Shown one piece after another: positions 3,903 through 12,106 of a stretch of 12,106 nucleotides of DNA. Position numbers and translations under genes: made by a program. The DNA comes from Prevotellaceae bacterium (GTDB taxonomy: Bacteria > Bacteroidota > Bacteroidia > Bacteroidales > UBA932). The notes below the pieces were generated by a model, which had not been told where the DNA came from, ran no database searches, and saw only the letters and a list, made by a program, of their open reading frames with translations. The DNA is taken from assembly GCA_031268055.1 (NCBI GenBank), contig JAIRXY010000263.1:1-12106 (forward strand), written 5' to 3'. Numbering within the stretch: position 1 is the stretch's first letter; each line of letters opens with the position of its first letter.

Positions 3903-5753
3903 ATGAATAAGATTTTTACCTCTGCTATTCTTTGTGCTATTTTGTGCGCTTTTGCACCAAATGCATTTTGCGCCGAAAATTCGCGCCAAATGGAGCGTCT
4001 GAATAGAGGCGTGGTGGCCGTTGCGTGCGATTCCGGCGTGTTTGTCAGCTGGCGGCTTTTGGGTGACGAAGACCCGCAAACGCTCTTCAACGTTTACCGG
4101 AATGGGGAGCGAATAAACGGGCAACCGCTGGCAGGCGCTACCTGCTGGATGGATGCGGCGGGAGGCATGGCGGACAAGTATGCCGTGAATGCTCTTGAAA
4201 AAGGCAAAGAGGCGGCTGCCTTACCGCAAGTAACGCCGTGGGATAAACCCTACATGTCGTTGCAGCTCAGCCGTCCGCCCTTTAACGTAGACTCTGCCAC
4301 GCTTAGCGCTCAGCAGCGCTGGGAGCGTGGGCCTCAGCAGCTCGGCTACCTTCCCAACGATTGCAGCGTGGGCGACCTTGACGGCGATGGCGAGTATGAG
4401 CTCGTTGTGAAGTGGAACGCCCGTGCGCGCGACAACTCCCAAGCGGGAATTACCGACCCCGTCCTATTAGATGCCTACAAGCTCGACGGCACGCACCTTT
4501 GGCGAATTGACCTTGGGATAAACATCCGCGCTGGGGCGCACTACACACAATTCATGGTGTACGACTTGGACGGCGACGGAAAGGCGGAGGTTGTCTGCAA
4601 AACAGCGCCCGGAACAACGGACGGGCTGGGAAAAAGCGTTGTCTTGGGCAGCGACGACCCCAACGCCGACTACCGCAACGAGCAGGGATACGTTATCGCT
4701 GGCCCCGAATACCTCACCGTGTTTAGCGGCGCAACCGGCGCAGCACTAACTACTATTCCCTACAATCCGCCGCGCGGCAATACTCTTCGCGAGACGTGGG
4801 GCGACGACAAGGGCAACCGCGTTGACCGTTTCCTTGCCTGCATTGCCTACTTGGACGGCGTGCACCCATCGGTAGTGATGTGCCGTGGCTACTATACCCG
4901 CGCCGTGCTGGTGGCCTACAGGTTCGACGGGAAGTCGCTCACGGAGCAGTGGGTGTACGATTCGGGTACGAAGCGGGATACCAAAAACACTGCTTACGGG
5001 CAGGGCAACCACAGCCTTGCCGCCGGCGACATTGACGGCGACGGCTTTGACGAAATTACCTACGGCGGGGCCTGCATTGACCACAACGGCACGCTGCTCT
5101 ACTCCACCGGTCTGGGGCACGGCGACGCGCACCATCTCTCCGACCTTGACCCCGACCGTCCGGGTCTGGAGTTTTTCGATGTGCATGAGACCAAGCCAAG
5201 CCCTGCCGGTGTAGAGCTGCGGGACGCGCGCACGGGCGAGCTCATCTTTGGACGACCTACCAACATTGACGTAGGTAGGGGGTTGGCGGCCGACATTGAC
5301 CCAAGGTACAGGGGATTTGAGTTTTGGAGCTCGGCGAGCGACAGCGTTTACAACATCAAGGGTGAGGTGATTGCCACCAAAAAACCCTCTGTCAACTTTC
5401 GCATCTACTGGGATGGCGACCTGCAAGACGAGCTGTTAGACGGAACTAAGCTCGACAAGTGGGACGGCAGCCGCGCTGTCCGCTTGGTGAATTTTGCCGA
5501 TTTTGGGGCTCGCTCCATCAACGGTACCAAGCAAAATCCCTGCCTGAGCGCCGATATTTTGGGCGATTGGCGCGAGGAGGTTATCCTCTACGACGGCAAC
5601 GACCCCAGCAGGCTGATGATTTTTACCACTACCATTCCTACATCTCACCGGATGCCCACCCTCATGCATGACCCGCTGTATCGCTTGGGGGTAGCCTCCC
5701 AGAACGTGGCCTACAACCAGCCACCGCACTTGGGAAAATACGTGGGAAATTAA
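3903..5753 (+). CDS. rhamnogalacturonan lyase, polysaccharide lyase family 11
   Basis: A 616-residue exported enzyme that cleaves the rhamnogalacturonan-I backbone by beta-elimination at Rha-GalA bonds, leaving unsaturated galacturonate ends. The signal peptide is MNKIFTSAILCAILCAFAPNAFCA, with cleavage likely after Ala24; no good lipobox precedes Cys23, so a soluble periplasmic protein is expected. After an N-terminal beta domain (to ~130) comes the PL11 propeller, with three calcium-loop motifs: DLDGDG at residue 158, DLDGDG at 221 and DIDGDG at 376. Other family stretches are VVCKTAPGT, VVMCRGYYTR, GQGNHSL, TGLGHGDAHH, the INGTKQNP...GDWREE block (from 539) and a C-terminal TLMHDPLYR...YNQPPHLG. 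Length matches YesW/YesX-type family members. The start is ATG 3903, the only one leading straight into the signal peptide. It is first of three co-oriented pectin enzymes. The family is secure; whether it acts endo or exo cannot be told here. Confidence 0.97.
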   Translation: MNKIFTSAILCAILCAFAPNAFCAENSRQMERLNRGVVAVACDSGVFVSWRLLGDEDPQTLFNVYRNGERINGQPLAGATCWMDAAGGMADKYAVNALEKGKEAAALPQVTPWDKPYMSLQLSRPPFNVDSATLSAQQRWERGPQQLGYLPNDCSVGDLDGDGEYELVVKWNARARDNSQAGITDPVLLDAYKLDGTHLWRIDLGINIRAGAHYTQFMVYDLDGDGKAEVVCKTAPGTTDGLGKSVVLGSDDPNADYRNEQGYVIAGPEYLTVFSGATGAALTTIPYNPPRGNTLRETWGDDKGNRVDRFLACIAYLDGVHPSVVMCRGYYTRAVLVAYRFDGKSLTEQWVYDSGTKRDTKNTAYGQGNHSLAAGDIDGDGFDEITYGGACIDHNGTLLYSTGLGHGDAHHLSDLDPDRPGLEFFDVHETKPSPAGVELRDARTGELIFGRPTNIDVGRGLAADIDPRYRGFEFWSSASDSVYNIKGEVIATKKPSVNFRIYWDGDLQDELLDGTKLDKWDGSRAVRLVNFADFGARSINGTKQNPCLSADILGDWREEVILYDGNDPSRLMIFTTTIPTSHRMPTLMHDPLYRLGVASQNVAYNQPPHLGKYVGN

Positions 5754-5944: not shown

Positions 5945-8809
5945 ATGTATCGTAAGCATATTCTTCATTTGGCGCTGCTGCTGCTTGTAGTGGGCGCTTT
6001 TGCGCAAGGCAATATCGTTGATTTGTCGGGGCCGTGGGAGTTCAAAATCGACCGCGACGACAAGGGCGCTACCGAAAAGTGGTTTAACAACCGCTTCGAC
6101 GATTACATCAACCTGCCGGGCTCCATGCCCGAAAACCTGCTGGGCGACATCCCCAACCTTGCTACCCGCTGGACGGGTAGCTTATACGACAGCTCATTCT
6201 ACCGCGACCCGCGCTATGAGAAGTACCGTCAGCCGGGCAACATCAAGTTCCCGTTTTTCCTCACGCCCGACAGACATTACGTTGGCGTAGCGTGGTACCA
6301 AAAGGAGGTGAGCATCCCCAAGAGCTGGGCAGGCAAGCAGGTATTTTTGCGGTTAGAGCGTCCGCACATCGTAACCCGCGTTTGGGTCGACGGCAACGAA
6401 GTTGGCGCTTACAGCGCTTTCTGCACGCCGCACGTGTTTGACCTCAGCCGCTGGATGAAGCCGGGAAAGCAATGTCGCATTAGCGTTAGCGTAGATAACA
6501 GGCTAACCGAGGCTATCAACGTGGGGCCGGATTCGCACAGCATTACCGACCAAACCCAAGGCAACTGGAATGGCATAGTGGGGGCGTTGCAGCTGGAGGC
6601 AAAAGATCCCGTTCACTTTGACGACATACAGGTGTACCCCAACCTCGCCGCAAAGCAAGCAGTCGTGAAGATTACGCTGAACAAGGAGGCTTCGGGGAGC
6701 ATTACGCTTTCGGCAAAGAGCTTCAACAGCAAGCTGACCCACGAGGCGCTGGCGGTAACGCAGGCGTTTGGCGCTACAGGAAAAACCCGTGAGGTGGAGC
6801 TCGCGCTGAAGTTGGGCGACGGCATGCAAACGTGGGATGAGTTCTCGCCCACCCTCTACACGCTGCACGCCGAGCTATCGTCTGGCAAGGCGAAGGACAG
6901 CCGCGATGTGCAATTTGGCATGCGCGAGGTGAGCATTGAGGGTAAGTATTTTTACATCAACGGGCGAAAAATCATGCTGAGGGGAACGGTGGAGAACTGC
7001 AACTTTCCGCTCACCGGCTACGCTCCTATGGATGTAGCGGCGTGGGAGCGGGTATTTCGTATTTGCAAAAATCACGGGCTAAACCACATGCGCTTTCACT
7101 CCTACTGCCCACCCGAGGCTGCTTTCGTGGCCGCCGACCTAACGGGCTTTTACCTGCAACCCGAAGGTCCCAGCTGGCCTAACCACGGTTCGTCGCTGGG
7201 CGACGGCAGGCCTATTGATACCTTTTTGCTCGACGAAACCGTGCGCCTCACCAAGGCCTACGGCAGCTACGCCTCGTTCTGCATGCTGTCGAGCGGCAAC
7301 GAGCCGCGGGGACGCTGGGTGCCGTGGGTGAGCCGCTTTGTGAGCTACTGGAAAGAGAAAGACCCGCGCCGCGTATACACCGGCGCTTCGGTTGGGCAAG
7401 GCTGGGCATGGCAGCCTGCAAGCCAATATCACGTGAAGGCCGGCGCGCGAGGGCTGGCGTGGGGGCAGCGCCCCGAAACTCGCTCCGACTACCGCGGACG
7501 CATAGACACCATACAGCAGCCATACGTGTCGCACGAAACGGGGCAGTGGTGCGTATTCCCCGACTTTGACGAAATGAAAAAGTATACGGGGGTGAATAAG
7601 GCAAAAAACTTTGAGCTCTTCCGCGAAGATTTGGCCGATCACGACATGGCCGACTTAGGGCACGACTTCATGATGGCTTCGGGCAAGCTTCAGGCGCTGT
7701 GCTACAAGCACGAGATAGAGAAAACCCTTCGAACGCCCGGATACGCCGGCTTCCAGCTGCTGGCGCTGAACGACTACTCGGGGCAAGGGTCAGCGCTGGT
7801 GGGCGTGCTCAACGTGTTTTTTGATGAAAAAGAGTACACAACGGCCTCCGAGTTTCGCAAGTTTTGCAGCAGCACTGTACCGTTAGCGCGCCTTGACAGA
7901 TTTGTGTTCCGCAGCGCAGACACCCTGAAAGCCGACGTTGAGGTGGCGCACTTTGGCGCTGCCCCTCTGCAAAATGTGCAGGCATCGTGGGCTATATGCA
8001 GCGAGCACGGCGTGCCGCTGGCCGAGGGGAAGTTGGCGAGGCAGGATATACCCATAGGCAGCTGCATTCCCTGGGGCAGCGTGAAGGCTCCCTTAAATCT
8101 TGTTTCAAAAGCTTCTAAGCTGACTTTTAGGGTAAGCATTGACGGTACGGAGTTCACCAACGATTGGGATTTCTGGGTATACCCCGACGTTAAGCCCACG
8201 TCTGGCGAAAGCGGCGTATACATTTGCGAGCAGCTGGACGATCGGGCGCTGGACACGCTAAGGCAGGGCGGCAGGGTGCTGCTGCTGGCAGCGGGAAAGG
8301 TAGAGTACGGAAAGGATATAGTACAGCACCTGCTGCCGGTGTTTTGGAACACCTCATGGTTTAAGATGCGGCCTCCGCACACCACCGGCATTTTGGTTAA
8401 CCCGCGGCATCCGCTGTTTGCCGACTTCCCCACCGACTACCACAGCAACCTGCAATGGTGGGAGCTGGTGCACCGGGCGCAGGTAATGCAGCTCACCGAC
8501 TTTCCCAAGGGATTTCAGCCGCTGGTGCAGTCCATCGACACGTGGTTTTTGAACCGCAAGATAGGTATGCTCTTTGAGGCGAATGTATCTGGCGGCAAGC
8601 TGGTTGTGTGCAGCATGGATATACAGAGTAGCTTGGACGAGCGCATTGTGGCGCGGCAGCTGCGCAGCAGCATCATCGGCTACATGCAGTCGGGCAAGTT
8701 TCGCCCGGCGCATCAGGTGGCGCTTACCGACGTGCAAAACCTTTTCACCAAGGAAGCCGACCGCGTAAAAACCTACACCACCGACGCGCCCGACGAGCTG
8801 AAAAATTAA
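5945..8809 (+). CDS. glycoside hydrolase family 2 enzyme with C-terminal amidotransferase-like domain
   Basis: A 954-residue exported beta-glycosidase. The signal peptide is MYRKHILHLALLLLVVGAFA, cleaved before Gln21. Residues ~22-220 form the GH2 sugar-binding jelly roll, including a long insertion (LYDSSFYRDPRYEKYRQPG) and HYVGVAWYQKEV. Residues ~225-330 are the Ig-like domain and ~335-640 the TIM barrel. SGNE places the likely acid/base at Glu453, and HETGQW places the likely nucleophile at Glu531, 78 residues later as expected for GH2. A beta-rich linker follows, then from ~755 a domain (LRQGGRVLLLAAG, a HPLFADFPT motif, GKLVVCSMD) resembling the glutamine-amidotransferase-like fold often appended to Bacteroidota GH2 proteins, with no obvious catalytic triad. 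The substrate is not readable from sequence; beta-galactose or beta-glucuronate side groups of rhamnogalacturonan-I are candidates from context. It lies 191 bases after the lyase and 231 before GH106-GH28. Confidence 0.93.
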   Translation: MYRKHILHLALLLLVVGAFAQGNIVDLSGPWEFKIDRDDKGATEKWFNNRFDDYINLPGSMPENLLGDIPNLATRWTGSLYDSSFYRDPRYEKYRQPGNIKFPFFLTPDRHYVGVAWYQKEVSIPKSWAGKQVFLRLERPHIVTRVWVDGNEVGAYSAFCTPHVFDLSRWMKPGKQCRISVSVDNRLTEAINVGPDSHSITDQTQGNWNGIVGALQLEAKDPVHFDDIQVYPNLAAKQAVVKITLNKEASGSITLSAKSFNSKLTHEALAVTQAFGATGKTREVELALKLGDGMQTWDEFSPTLYTLHAELSSGKAKDSRDVQFGMREVSIEGKYFYINGRKIMLRGTVENCNFPLTGYAPMDVAAWERVFRICKNHGLNHMRFHSYCPPEAAFVAADLTGFYLQPEGPSWPNHGSSLGDGRPIDTFLLDETVRLTKAYGSYASFCMLSSGNEPRGRWVPWVSRFVSYWKEKDPRRVYTGASVGQGWAWQPASQYHVKAGARGLAWGQRPETRSDYRGRIDTIQQPYVSHETGQWCVFPDFDEMKKYTGVNKAKNFELFREDLADHDMADLGHDFMMASGKLQALCYKHEIEKTLRTPGYAGFQLLALNDYSGQGSALVGVLNVFFDEKEYTTASEFRKFCSSTVPLARLDRFVFRSADTLKADVEVAHFGAAPLQNVQASWAICSEHGVPLAEGKLARQDIPIGSCIPWGSVKAPLNLVSKASKLTFRVSIDGTEFTNDWDFWVYPDVKPTSGESGVYICEQLDDRALDTLRQGGRVLLLAAGKVEYGKDIVQHLLPVFWNTSWFKMRPPHTTGILVNPRHPLFADFPTDYHSNLQWWELVHRAQVMQLTDFPKGFQPLVQSIDTWFLNRKIGMLFEANVSGGKLVVCSMDIQSSLDERIVARQLRSSIIGYMQSGKFRPAHQVALTDVQNLFTKEADRVKTYTTDAPDELKN

Positions 8810-8877
8810 TTAAGAATTAAGAATTAAGAACGCAAGATTTTCGTCAATGTTGCATATTCTTAATTCTTAATTCTTAA
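8810..8877. repeat. perfect 21-bp inverted repeat of heptamers after the GH2 gene
   Basis: The left arm 8810-8830 (TAAGAAT units starting one base after the GH2 stop) is the exact reverse complement of 8857-8877 (three ATTCTTA units). The loop is 26 bases and contains TTTTCGTCAATGTTGCATA, the recurring module also seen twice before the GH2 gene. The stem is almost all A/T. It could fold as an RNA hairpin between the two genes or promote slippage and recombination. Confidence 0.8.
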
Positions 8878-8993
8878 CGTAGGAGAAGCCCTATGGACAG
8901 AGCAAGAGTTGTCCGTCATGCCCTGAAAGGGTGTAATCCAAGCTATAGTTGGCGCTTTCGAGACATCTGCTTTATTTTGCCGAATAACAGTAT
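8878..8993. other. unique spacer inside the repeat region, possible REP-like fragment
   Basis: This 116-base stretch sits between two ATTCTTA arrays and is richer in GC than the arrays. It contains CCCTGAAAGGG (8921-8931), a small palindrome I associate with REP-like interspersed repeats in Bacteroidota, though from memory only. An AGGAG (8881-8885) stands seven bases before an ATG at 8893 that opens a 35-codon frame ending at 9000; its product resembles nothing known, and I do not call it a gene. Confidence 0.3.
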
Positions 8994-8999
8994 TTCTTA

Positions 9000-9030
9000 A
9001 TTCTTAATTCTTAATTCTTAATTCTTAATT
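9000..9030. repeat. ATTCTTA heptamer array, four perfect copies
   Basis: Perfect ATTCTTA units lie at 9000-9006, 9007-9013, 9014-9020 and 9021-9027, with an imperfect unit before and a partial ATT after. The array ends ten bases before the GH106-GH28 start codon, in the same relative place as the array before the GH2 gene, and would form part of the mRNA leader. Confidence 0.85.
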
Positions 9031-9040
9031 TCTAACTGCC

Positions 9041-12000
9041 ATGTTGTTTCATTCAAAATTCAAAATTCAAAATTCAAAATTTCTATCCTGCTTTTTGTTG
9101 CTGCTATCTGTCGGATCTTTGCAGGCGCAGCTGGTTGATTGGCCTCCTGTTGCGAAGGAGGCAAAGCCCTACACCCGCTGGTGGTGGCTGGGAAGCGCTG
9201 TGGACGAAGCGAATCTGACTGGTAGCCTTGAGGCCTACGCGCAGAAAGGCATTGGCGGCGTGGAGATAACCCCCATTTACGGAGTCAAGGGCAACGACAG
9301 CAGCAATATTCCCTTCCTTTCGCCGAGGTGGATGGAGGTGTATGCGCACGCTGTAAGGGAGGCAAGGCGGCTGAACATGGAGGTAGATATGAACACCGGT
9401 ACCGGCTGGCCTTTTGGCGGTCCACAAGTCGGCATAGCCGACGCCGCGGGTAAGGTTATTTTCCGTCGCTACGCGCTCTCGTCGGGCGAGAAGCTGAGCG
9501 AAAAGGTGGCGGTAGACGACCCCAAGCAAAAAGAGGTGGCTTCGTTGCTGCGCCTCATGGCGTTTGAAAAAAGCACAGGAAAGAAGCTCGACCTCACCGC
9601 CAAGGTATCCACAGACGGCGCGTTGCTCTGGGTTGCCCCTAAAGGCAGGTGGGAGCTGGTGGCGGTGTTTAGCGGAAAAACCTTACAGCAGGTAAAGCGG
9701 GCGGCGCCCGGCGGGGAGGGCTACGTGATGGACCACCTCTCGAAAGCCGCGGTTGACAGCTACCTCAAGCGCTTTGACGAAGCCTTTGCGCAGAGCGGAG
9801 CGCCTCTACCCGGCGTATTCTTCAACGACTCCTACGAGGTGTACGGAGCAGACTGGACGCCAGGATTGCTTACCGAGTTTAGCAAGCGGCGGGGCTACAA
9901 GCTGGAGGACTACCTGCTTGTACTACTGGGGGAAGATGGCAGCGCCAACGACCGCGCTCGCCTTGTGAGCGACTACCGCGAAACCGTAGGCGAGCTGCTG
10001 CTCGAAAATTTTACCGCCGCGTGGACTGCCTGGGCGCACCGGCATGGCAGCACAACCCGCAATCAGGCGCACGGGTCGCCGGGTAACCTTATAGACCTTT
10101 ACGCCGCCGTTGACATTCCGGAGTGCGAATCGTTTGGAATTTCCGACTTCGGCATTAGGGGGCTGCGAAAGGATAGCTTGCGAAAGGAGAACGACTCCGA
10201 TATTTCGATGCTCAAGTACGCTTCGTCGGCGGCGCACGTGGCCGGCAAGAAGCTCACCTCGTCGGAAACGCTCACGTGGCTTACGGAGCACTTCCGCACG
10301 TCGCTCTCACAGTGCAAGCCCGACGTTGACCTTATGCTTGTGGCAGGCGTAAACCACCTCATATTTCACGGAACGCCATACTCCCCCAAGGAGGCAGCGT
10401 GGCCCGGATGGCTGTTTTACGCCTCGGTGAACATGTCGCCTACCAACCCCATTTGGAGGGATGCCGACGCTATGTTTGCCTACATAACCCGTGCGCAGTC
10501 TTTCCTTCAGTATGGGCAGCCCGACAACGATTTTCTTGTTTACCTGCCCATTTACGATATTTGGCATGGCGAGCAGCAACCTCACTACATGGCTTTCAGC
10601 ATTCACGACATGCGCAAGCGTGCGCCGGAGTTTATTAGCGCGGTGACCTCCATCATCGGTAGCGGCTACGATGTGGACTACATTTCCGACAAGTTTGTCA
10701 AGACGACAAAAGTCGAAAACGGCTTGCTGAAAACGCAGGGCGGGAGCAAGTATAAGGCTATTGTAGCGCCCAACGTAAAGCTTATGCCTCCTGCCACCCT
10801 GAAAGCGCTGATGCAGCTGGCGCAGGACGGCGCTACGGTGATTTTTGTGGGGCAGTACCCCGACGATACCCCCGGCCTCCAGCGCAGGGAGGACAGCAAA
10901 AAGAGCCTGAGCAGCCTGCTAAAGGCGCTGCCGGTGGCAGATTTTGATGGAGTGAACGTCGCCGCATTTGGCAAGGGAAAAATAGCGACGGGCGCAGATT
11001 ACGCGCAGGCGCTGGCCGTCTGTGGGCTGAGCGGCGAGGCCATCAGGACGGAGCTGGGAGCGCAGTGCATACGCCGCGCTAACGAAAGCGGACATCACTA
11101 CTTTATTGCCAACCTGCAAGAAAAAGACATCGACGCGTGGGTTACCTTGGCGGTGGACGCTACCTCTGCCGTGCTGTACAACCCTATGACGGGCAACCTT
11201 GGCAAGGGGAAGCTTCGCAGGAGCAGCGGCAAAGCAGAGGTATACTTGCAGCTTCGCTCCGGTGAATCTGTCATCCTCAAAACCTTCAAAAATGCCGACG
11301 TTGAGGCTGCTGCATGGCCTTACTACAGGGAGCAGCCGCTGGCAATCGAAGTTGCCGGAGGGTGGCAGCTACAATTTGTGGAGAGCGAGCCTCCCATCAG
11401 CGGCAGCTTTTACATCGACAAGCTCAGGCCTTGGACAGACCTGAACGTGCCCAATGCAAAGGTAAATATGGGAACGGCAAAGTACACCGCCGTCTTTGAC
11501 ATGCCGCAGGTAGAAGCCGACGGCTGGATTTTGGATTTAGGCGATGTGCGCGAGAGCGCCCGCGTGTCAATCAACGGGCAGCAAGTGGCAACGCTTTGGG
11601 CTGTTCCGTACAGGGCGCTTGTGGGGCACGCGCTGAAAAAAGGAAAAAATACGCTTGAGGTTGAGGTAACAGGAACCCCCGCCAACCGCATTGCCGACTA
11701 CGATCGGCGGGGCGTAAAGTGGCGCATATTCAACGAAATAAATTTTGTGGATATTAAGTACAAACCTGCAACCTTTGGCCATTGGGCTACGCTGCCGTCG
11801 GGCTTGCTGGGGCCTGTAAAGTTCATTCCGGTAGCTTCGGCGCACCGCCCCGAGTGGGCTGATTCGGTAGGAGCGATGCGCTTCCTCAACGCCTCAGGCA
11901 GGGTAAATATCAAAGATTTTGGTGCAAGGCCGGATGGAAAAACCCTAAGCGCTAAAGCTATTCAGGCGGCCATTGACGCTTGCGCCGACAGAGGAGGAGG

Positions 12001-12106
12001 GAGAGTAGAGGTAGGAGCAGGAGCCTACCTCACCGGTGCAATTTTTCTGAAAAGCAACGTAGAGCTGCACCTCAGCGAGGGCGCTACGCTCCTTGCAGCG
12101 AGCGAC
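9041..12106 (+). CDS. GH106 alpha-L-rhamnosidase fused to a GH28 (polygalacturonase-family) domain, 3' end cut off
   Basis: The frame is open for 1022 codons, from ATG 9041 to the window end. The signal peptide has an extended n-region (residues 1-13, partly encoded by a heptamer repeat) and a core FLSCFLLLLSVGSLQA, cleaved after Ala29. Residues ~32-930 are GH106: TRWWWLGSAVDE, NTGTGWPFGG, NDSYE (263-266), RNQAHGSPGN (340-348), DIPECESFG, SSETLTW with Glu409, AGVNHLIFHGTPYSP, then a C-terminal jelly roll (~775-935) ending in WATLPSGLLGPV. After a ~20-residue linker, residues 955-1022 begin a GH28 right-handed beta helix: VNIKDFGARPDGKT, AIQAAIDAC, GGGRV, FLKSNVELHL. The GH28 catalytic Asp residues lie beyond the window. 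GH106 removes alpha-L-rhamnose; GH28 would remove or cut at alpha-galacturonate, the other residue of the rhamnogalacturonan-I backbone. It is third in the enzyme series. Confidence 0.95.
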   Translation, partial: MLFHSKFKIQNSKFLSCFLLLLSVGSLQAQLVDWPPVAKEAKPYTRWWWLGSAVDEANLTGSLEAYAQKGIGGVEITPIYGVKGNDSSNIPFLSPRWMEVYAHAVREARRLNMEVDMNTGTGWPFGGPQVGIADAAGKVIFRRYALSSGEKLSEKVAVDDPKQKEVASLLRLMAFEKSTGKKLDLTAKVSTDGALLWVAPKGRWELVAVFSGKTLQQVKRAAPGGEGYVMDHLSKAAVDSYLKRFDEAFAQSGAPLPGVFFNDSYEVYGADWTPGLLTEFSKRRGYKLEDYLLVLLGEDGSANDRARLVSDYRETVGELLLENFTAAWTAWAHRHGSTTRNQAHGSPGNLIDLYAAVDIPECESFGISDFGIRGLRKDSLRKENDSDISMLKYASSAAHVAGKKLTSSETLTWLTEHFRTSLSQCKPDVDLMLVAGVNHLIFHGTPYSPKEAAWPGWLFYASVNMSPTNPIWRDADAMFAYITRAQSFLQYGQPDNDFLVYLPIYDIWHGEQQPHYMAFSIHDMRKRAPEFISAVTSIIGSGYDVDYISDKFVKTTKVENGLLKTQGGSKYKAIVAPNVKLMPPATLKALMQLAQDGATVIFVGQYPDDTPGLQRREDSKKSLSSLLKALPVADFDGVNVAAFGKGKIATGADYAQALAVCGLSGEAIRTELGAQCIRRANESGHHYFIANLQEKDIDAWVTLAVDATSAVLYNPMTGNLGKGKLRRSSGKAEVYLQLRSGESVILKTFKNADVEAAAWPYYREQPLAIEVAGGWQLQFVESEPPISGSFYIDKLRPWTDLNVPNAKVNMGTAKYTAVFDMPQVEADGWILDLGDVRESARVSINGQQVATLWAVPYRALVGHALKKGKNTLEVEVTGTPANRIADYDRRGVKWRIFNEINFVDIKYKPATFGHWATLPSGLLGPVKFIPVASAHRPEWADSVGAMRFLNASGRVNIKDFGARPDGKTLSAKAIQAAIDACADRGGGRVEVGAGAYLTGAIFLKSNVELHLSEGATLLAASD
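9051..9078 (+). repeat. coding heptanucleotide repeat ATTCAAA x4 at the start of the GH106-GH28 gene
   Basis: Four perfect ATTCAAA units (9051-9057, 9058-9064, 9065-9071, 9072-9078) and a partial ATT follow the start codon by ten bases. They encode residues 4-13, ahead of the hydrophobic core of the signal peptide. Seven is not a multiple of three, so gain or loss of one unit shifts the frame; with one unit more, the frame from the same ATG soon meets a TGA. No other ATG lies in frame upstream before a stop at 9026. Confidence 0.85.

Follow-up and report, generated by a model that had tools for sequence, protein, structure and literature searches.

A gene joining GH106 and GH28 glycoside hydrolase domains in a Prevotellaceae bacterium, one of several fusions of related GH106 enzymes

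The backbone of rhamnogalacturonan I (RG-I) alternates two sugars, rhamnose (Rha) and galacturonate (GalA), and its exo-degradation needs two enzymes in turn. Within RG-I chemistry, enzymes of glycoside hydrolase (GH) family 28 remove GalA, GH105 enzymes remove unsaturated GalA, and GH2 enzymes remove galactose from Rha. The closest described systems are the BT4145-type GH106 rhamnosidases and, for GH28, BT4153, BT4155 and BT4146 together with the solved galacturonidase 5olp and the Thermotoga maritima exopolygalacturonase 3jur. Here we analyzed a stretch of 12,106 nucleotides from a Prevotellaceae bacterium (contig JAIRXY010000263.1 of assembly GCA_031268055.1; hereafter the window), in which a stop-free ATG frame of 1022 codons joins a GH106 domain to the beginning of a GH28 domain (Table 1). 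We consider it probable that this gene encodes an exported two-enzyme protein that alternately removes Rha and GalA from RG-I, and that it is one of several fusions in which a related GH106 is tethered to another enzyme.

The fused gene, its orthologue and its unfused sister

The window is the entire contig C293 of genome G000 (2.07 Mb in 313 contigs, 74.5% complete), so the frame, which runs off the window, ends at 12106 because the contig ends there. An earlier reading of the letters alone (the sequence-only reading) had described a frame continuous from a signal peptide through GH106 into the first 68 residues of GH28; the frame is indeed open throughout, and the count is right within one (69). 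The same reading had placed the catalytic part of GH28 beyond the window. This agrees with the orthologue found in a second species, from a separate assembly (genome G010, contig C174, locus L035), which is 88% identical to the window and whose fused frame of 1401 codons contains a complete GH28 with its catalytic Asp motifs.

That an assembly artefact joined two genes is extremely improbable. The frame does stop where a contig ends, and the genome is fragmented and incomplete, but the identical junction lies mid-contig in G010, the differences between the two species are mostly synonymous, and GH28 lacks its own signal peptide where the two domains meet, the linker standing in the place that a stop codon and such a peptide would take. 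The ratio of nonsynonymous to synonymous substitution rates (dN/dS) between the window and L035 is 0.10 for GH106 (898 codons), 0.46 for the linker (23 codons) and 0.08 for the GH28 stub (69 codons), and 23 of the 31 differences in the stub fall at third codon positions. These values suggest purifying selection on both sides of the junction, with a linker that looks loosely conserved, and the mostly synonymous divergence on both sides argues against an assembly error as well as against decaying read-through. The sequence-only reading had named an assembly error at the junction as a possible refutation; that error is ruled out by the second species, by synteny and by the substitution pattern, and the GH106-GH28 fusion is confirmed as real.

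A sister species (genome G003, locus L149) carries a solo GH106 at the same locus, 82% identical, which terminates five residues beyond the same IPV motif and is followed after 135 bp by the next gene. In G010, cstA (identified by Pfam) lies 314 bp after the fused frame and is 84% identical to the gene that follows the G003 GH106. The GH28 of G003 is instead encoded by a separate gene some 4 kb distant and is of BT4153 type (768 bits against a cut-off of 650). The simplest history would be a gain of the GH28 module on the branch leading to G000 and G010, a branch whose support in the Shimodaira-Hasegawa-like approximate likelihood ratio test (88) is below the starred level; an early gain followed by loss in G003 is a possible alternative. 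Immediately upstream of the G003 GH106 is a gene for an oligogalacturonate lyase like those of polysaccharide lyase (PL) family 22 (L149:12115-13356, by Pfam), and a similar-looking frame was spotted by eye in genome G1498 (L232:2146-3360).

The exact start of the fused gene is uncertain, since its first codons overlap an ATTCAAA repeat. AT-rich repeats occupy positions 8808-9072, the interval between the GH2 gene and the fused gene (AATTAAG and its complement, then ATTCAAA), and reach these codons. In G010, repeat-like codons (FKIQN) likewise stand ahead of cstA and of the fused gene, which leaves start codons uncertain in these places. The predicted signal peptide reads LSVG in the window and LSAC in G010 and G003; the latter is a possible lipoprotein motif, and membrane anchoring may therefore differ among the species. 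No Rfam family was found in the window at gathering scores, and a promoter and terminator scan of 8700-9200 gave nothing clearly exceeding shuffled controls. The G010 locus further contains an element of about 84 bp (L035:5987-6070), matched at 73-82% identity, in either orientation, on several contigs of G000; ARAGORN detected no tRNA in L035, this element included.

The two catalytic domains and their genomic context

The GH106 domain scores 1449 bits on the BT4145 equivalog model of NCBIfam (cut-off 1300), covering positions 3-897 of 897, and matches Pfam PF17132 with an E-value of 1.6e-78. It could be aligned to the solved chains 5mqm and 6q2f. Two glutamates, which we take to be the catalytic or active-site residues of GH106, are well represented among the 123 GH106 rows of our tree: the NDSYE pattern around E266 occurs in 121 rows, and the SSET pattern around E409 occurs as written in 107 and is missing from 16. 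A catalytic role for E266 appears likely.

Although short, the GH28 stub is recognizable. The BT4146 GH28 model gives 59 bits, its positions 1-65 aligning with residues 957-1021, and the BT4155, BT4153, PglB and PglA models match at a similar level; Pfam PF12708 (Rhamnogalacturonase A/epimerase) scores 25.3, just below its cut-off of 27, and Pfam GH28 (PF00295) was not listed for the stub at E-values up to 0.1. On the complete orthologue, Pfam GH28 scores 69 bits against a cut-off of 22.9, and the motifs STD (1155-1157), NDD (1177-1179), GSE and R-x-K, including the catalytic Asp residues, are retained. The GH28 domain is predicted to fold into a right-handed beta-helix (predicted local distance difference test score, pLDDT, 91.2; predicted template modelling score, pTM, 0.92). 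By both sequence and Foldseek, the nearest solved chains are the galacturonidase 5olp, presumably exo-acting, and the exopolygalacturonases 3jur and 2uve, ahead of the endo-enzyme 1bhe, and the domain is thus probably exo-acting itself.

The remainder of the window's own GH28 was sought in G000 by DNA search with the L035 continuation, which, apart from unrelated repeats, turned up just 38 overlapping bases at the contig edge. Three other G000 GH28 genes, which score 158, 114 and 56 bits when compared with the L035 GH28 domain, were rejected as the missing half.

We take the fused GH28 to be a galacturonidase, and its assignment to RG-I comes from gene context: the PL11 rhamnogalacturonan lyase, the BT4151-type GH2 and the fused gene form a coherent RG-I gene set. 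The neighbouring genes fit the RG-I role put forward by the sequence-only reading; the GH28 itself passes no curated equivalog cut-off (188.8 bits on BT4155, cut-off 800; 182.9 on BT4153, cut-off 650; 109.5 on BT4146, cut-off 500). The domain could instead act on homogalacturonan or another galacturonan, in which case the protein would serve two pectin domains rather than one alternating chain. This is consistent with the names of the nearest solved relatives (galacturonidase and exopolygalacturonase), with the lack of any rhamnogalacturonidase assignment by the curated models, and with BT4155, an alpha-D-galacturonidase model, being the best-scoring one for L035. We nevertheless judge it unlikely in view of the company that this type of GH28 keeps. 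In a tree of 59 GH28 rows, the fused domain falls within a group of 31 rows separate from other GH28s, where the stand-alone proteins of L064, L202 and L050 adjoin it with support of 98/99. Members of this group lie next to a BT4145-like GH106 in L050, are fused to one in genome G057, and lie next to a more distant GH106 in G1498; moreover, the BT4153 rhamnogalacturonidase model gives the top score in five of the six members scanned, L035 being the exception. None of the genus's 11 genomes (50-91% complete) yielded a stand-alone member of the group at an E-value of 1e-60. The group also contributes the GH28 part of a GH43-GH28 fusion in genome G1074 (L198:1492-3795).

Fusions of related GH106s

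Related GH106s were surveyed in overlapping sets of genomes: 60 relatives (among the matches listed), 11 from the genus, 398 from the family, 393 from the order, and 395 each from the class and the phylum. All sets except the relatives used strict E limits, and in the family to phylum sets two candidates were scored per genome, so weaker relatives would be missed. Architectures were counted only from directly translated frames. Among 76 loci with a related GH106 (one of them, L107, left unlabelled as it has no GH106 frame above 400 bits), there was one GH106-GH28 fusion (L035), seven fusions with a GH105-like domain and one with GH2. A separate GH28 gene was immediately adjacent in 18 of the 76 loci, four of these GH106s being themselves fused to GH105 or GH2. 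A GH105-like match lay next door in nine loci, though at L037 and L062 it is very weak (30 bits) and at L097 it is probably part of the same split gene. The earlier expectation that GH106 and GH28 usually occupy separate genes was therefore borne out, and the search for further fusions that it had recommended yielded, from these genome samples, the second forward fusion in G010 and one in reverse order in G057.

Long frames in G705, G416 and G1498 that had looked like further fusions proved on direct translation to be separate genes, a stop codon and 15 bp lying between GH106 and the following GH28 in G1498. No partner fused to GH106 was seen in G530 or G1304. The GH106-GH28 fusion is rare, and its forward order was found only in G000 and G010 among the genomes sampled. 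Such rarity is what one would expect if stop loss or recombination had simply joined two neighbours, leaving both domains active as independent beads with no kinetic gain beyond 1:1 stoichiometry. The frequency of unfused neighbours, sometimes only a few bases apart as in G1498, and the loosely conserved linker point the same way, and we regard this neutral tethering as quite possible. On the other side, the presence of five architectures that join functionally adjacent enzymes would seem to exceed what one accident would produce.

These five architectures were recognized in the 123-row GH106 tree, which contains 105 single rows (some of which may be truncated by a locus end), eight GH105-GH106, six GH106-GH105, two GH106-GH28, one GH28-GH106 and one GH2-GH106. 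They occupy different parts of the tree, and the GH28 domains of the two GH28-containing orders fall into different sub-clades of one weakly supported clade of 11 rows. From these positions we regard five separate fusion events as likely, not proven; long-branch joins were flagged in this quick tree, and support is only moderate at several forks.

The BT4145 cut-off of 1300 is passed by L035 (1430), by the reverse fusion L150 of G057 (1401.8) and by the GH2 fusion L037 (1469). BT4145 is also the best NCBIfam match of the GH105-fused GH106s, whose partner matches the GH88 family model of Pfam (PF07470) in all six proteins scanned; we infer that it belongs to GH105. Within one clade (L082, L085, L098, L148 and L154), L082, L085 and L098 have a GH105-like gene upstream of GH106 and separate from it, but in L154 it is fused, which suggests a plausible path to fusion. 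The reverse fusion was found in one genome only, the other genome of its genus having no match. In L150, a signal-peptide-like stretch occurs only at the start of the frame, the GH28 match ends at residue 486 and GH106 begins at 494. The GH2 partner in L037 is nearest to the BT4156 galactosidase model, below its cut-off (1432 vs 1700), and two separate GH28 genes follow this fusion.

Table 1. Features of the window and of the other GH106 fusions
Feature	Position	Strand	Basis or remark
PL11 rhamnogalacturonan lyase	3903..5753	+	PF21348, 694 bits; PF18370, 105 bits
GH2 exo-beta-1,4-galactosidase, BT4151 type (RG-I side chains)	5945..8809	+	NF049890, 1549.7 bits (cut-off 1500)
Fused GH106-GH28 gene, 5' 1022 codons, cut by contig edge	9041..12106	+	Complete orthologue L035:5-4204
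Putative signal peptide, about 30 residues	9041..9130	+	Read from the sequence
GH106 alpha-L-rhamnosidase, BT4145 type, residues 32-930	9134..11830	+	NF049897, PF17132
E266 (NDSYE), candidate catalytic Glu	9836..9838	+	Aligned to the residue that is E in 5mqm and Q in 5mwk
E409 (SSET), second candidate active-site Glu	10265..10267	+	Aligned to a Glu of 5mqm
GH106 C-terminal jelly-roll module	11351..11695	+	NF045579, 75.3 bits (cut-off 50)
Linker, residues 931-953	11831..11899	+	52% amino-acid identity to L035, dN/dS 0.46
GH28 start, 69 codons, cut by contig end	11900..12106	+	GH28 models; 88% identical to L035 GH28
GH28-GH106 reverse fusion (G057)	L150:5974-10176		1401 codons
GH2-GH106 fusion (Odoribacteraceae)	L037:1497-7043		1849 residues (1851 codons stop to stop)
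GH105-like domain N-terminal to GH106	L094, L095, L097, L099, L101, L102, L110, L154		
GH105-like domain C-terminal to GH106	L162/L172, L163/L173, L164, L166/L174, L175, L176		

Proposed role and comparison with known systems

We propose that the complete gene has about 1,395 codons, of which the window carries the first 1022, and that its product would be exported and probably periplasmic. The PL11 lyase would release RG-I oligosaccharides and the GH2 galactosidase would trim them, after which GH106 as an exo-alpha-L-rhamnosidase and GH28 as an alpha-galacturonidase would take Rha and GalA in turn at the non-reducing end. The likeliest origin of the fusion is the addition, within one genus, of a GH28 module to the C-terminus of GH106 at a fixed locus. 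It would be one of several separate fusions that tether a BT4145-like GH106 to a partner (GH28, GH105 or GH2) which, on the RG-I chemistry described above, is expected to expose the substrate of GH106, an accessible Rha at the chain end. Tethering would at least set a 1:1 stoichiometry, and it is reasonable to suppose that the two domains co-operate through it, possibly with a kinetic gain.

A bolder version of this proposal sees in the BT4145-like GH106 a docking site to which such partners have been joined time and again. The GH106-GH28 protein would then be an alternating unzipper, the chain end passing between tethered exo-sites so that each cycle takes off two sugars and few intermediates are released, much as the sequence-only reading had suggested that the backbone could be stripped while the chain stays bound. 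We find this distinctly doubtful. Each exo-site must rebind a new chain end after every cut unless the sites face each other, and in the two-domain model (pTM 0.72) the linker has a pLDDT below 50 and the jelly roll is poorly modelled (few rows in the alignment), so we claim no domain arrangement. This need for rebinding weighs against a hand-over, and other findings count against further parts of our proposal: the forward fusion is confined to two genomes; all eight GH105-fused GH106s scanned fall below the BT4145 cut-off (1025-1214 bits), which weakens the wider pattern; VIA places the endo-enzyme 7b8b level with the exo-enzymes, which bears on the exo action of GH28; and, for the RG-I substrate, the GH28 falls short of the curated cut-offs.

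The repeated fusion of related GH106s adds interest to the GH106-GH28 protein. Natural fusions in both orders, apparently of separate origins, are ready-made constructs for asking whether proximity or hand-over limits the RG-I pathway, and they hint at the pairs of enzymes on which selection may act as on a single unit.

Compared with known systems, residues 32-930 of the window protein match the BT4145-type GH106 model (NF049897) end to end and above its cut-off; that model describes a single domain of 897 positions, whereas the window protein adds a second catalytic domain. The GH28 of L035 shares family and motifs with BT4153 (NF049899), BT4155 (NF049892) and BT4146 (NF049898), but scores far below their cut-offs and belongs to a separate tree group. 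The solved enzymes 3jur and 5olp are 26-30% identical to the fused GH28 and, unlike the window protein, have no joined GH106. In the GH105-GH106 and GH106-GH105 proteins, too, a BT4145-like GH106 is paired with a domain that should free terminal Rha, but this partner is of the PF07470 type and their GH106 lies below the BT4145 cut-off, unlike that of the window. The GH28-GH106 protein of G057 has a GH28 of the same group and a GH106 above the BT4145 cut-off, as in the fused gene, but carries them in the opposite order and takes other places in both trees.
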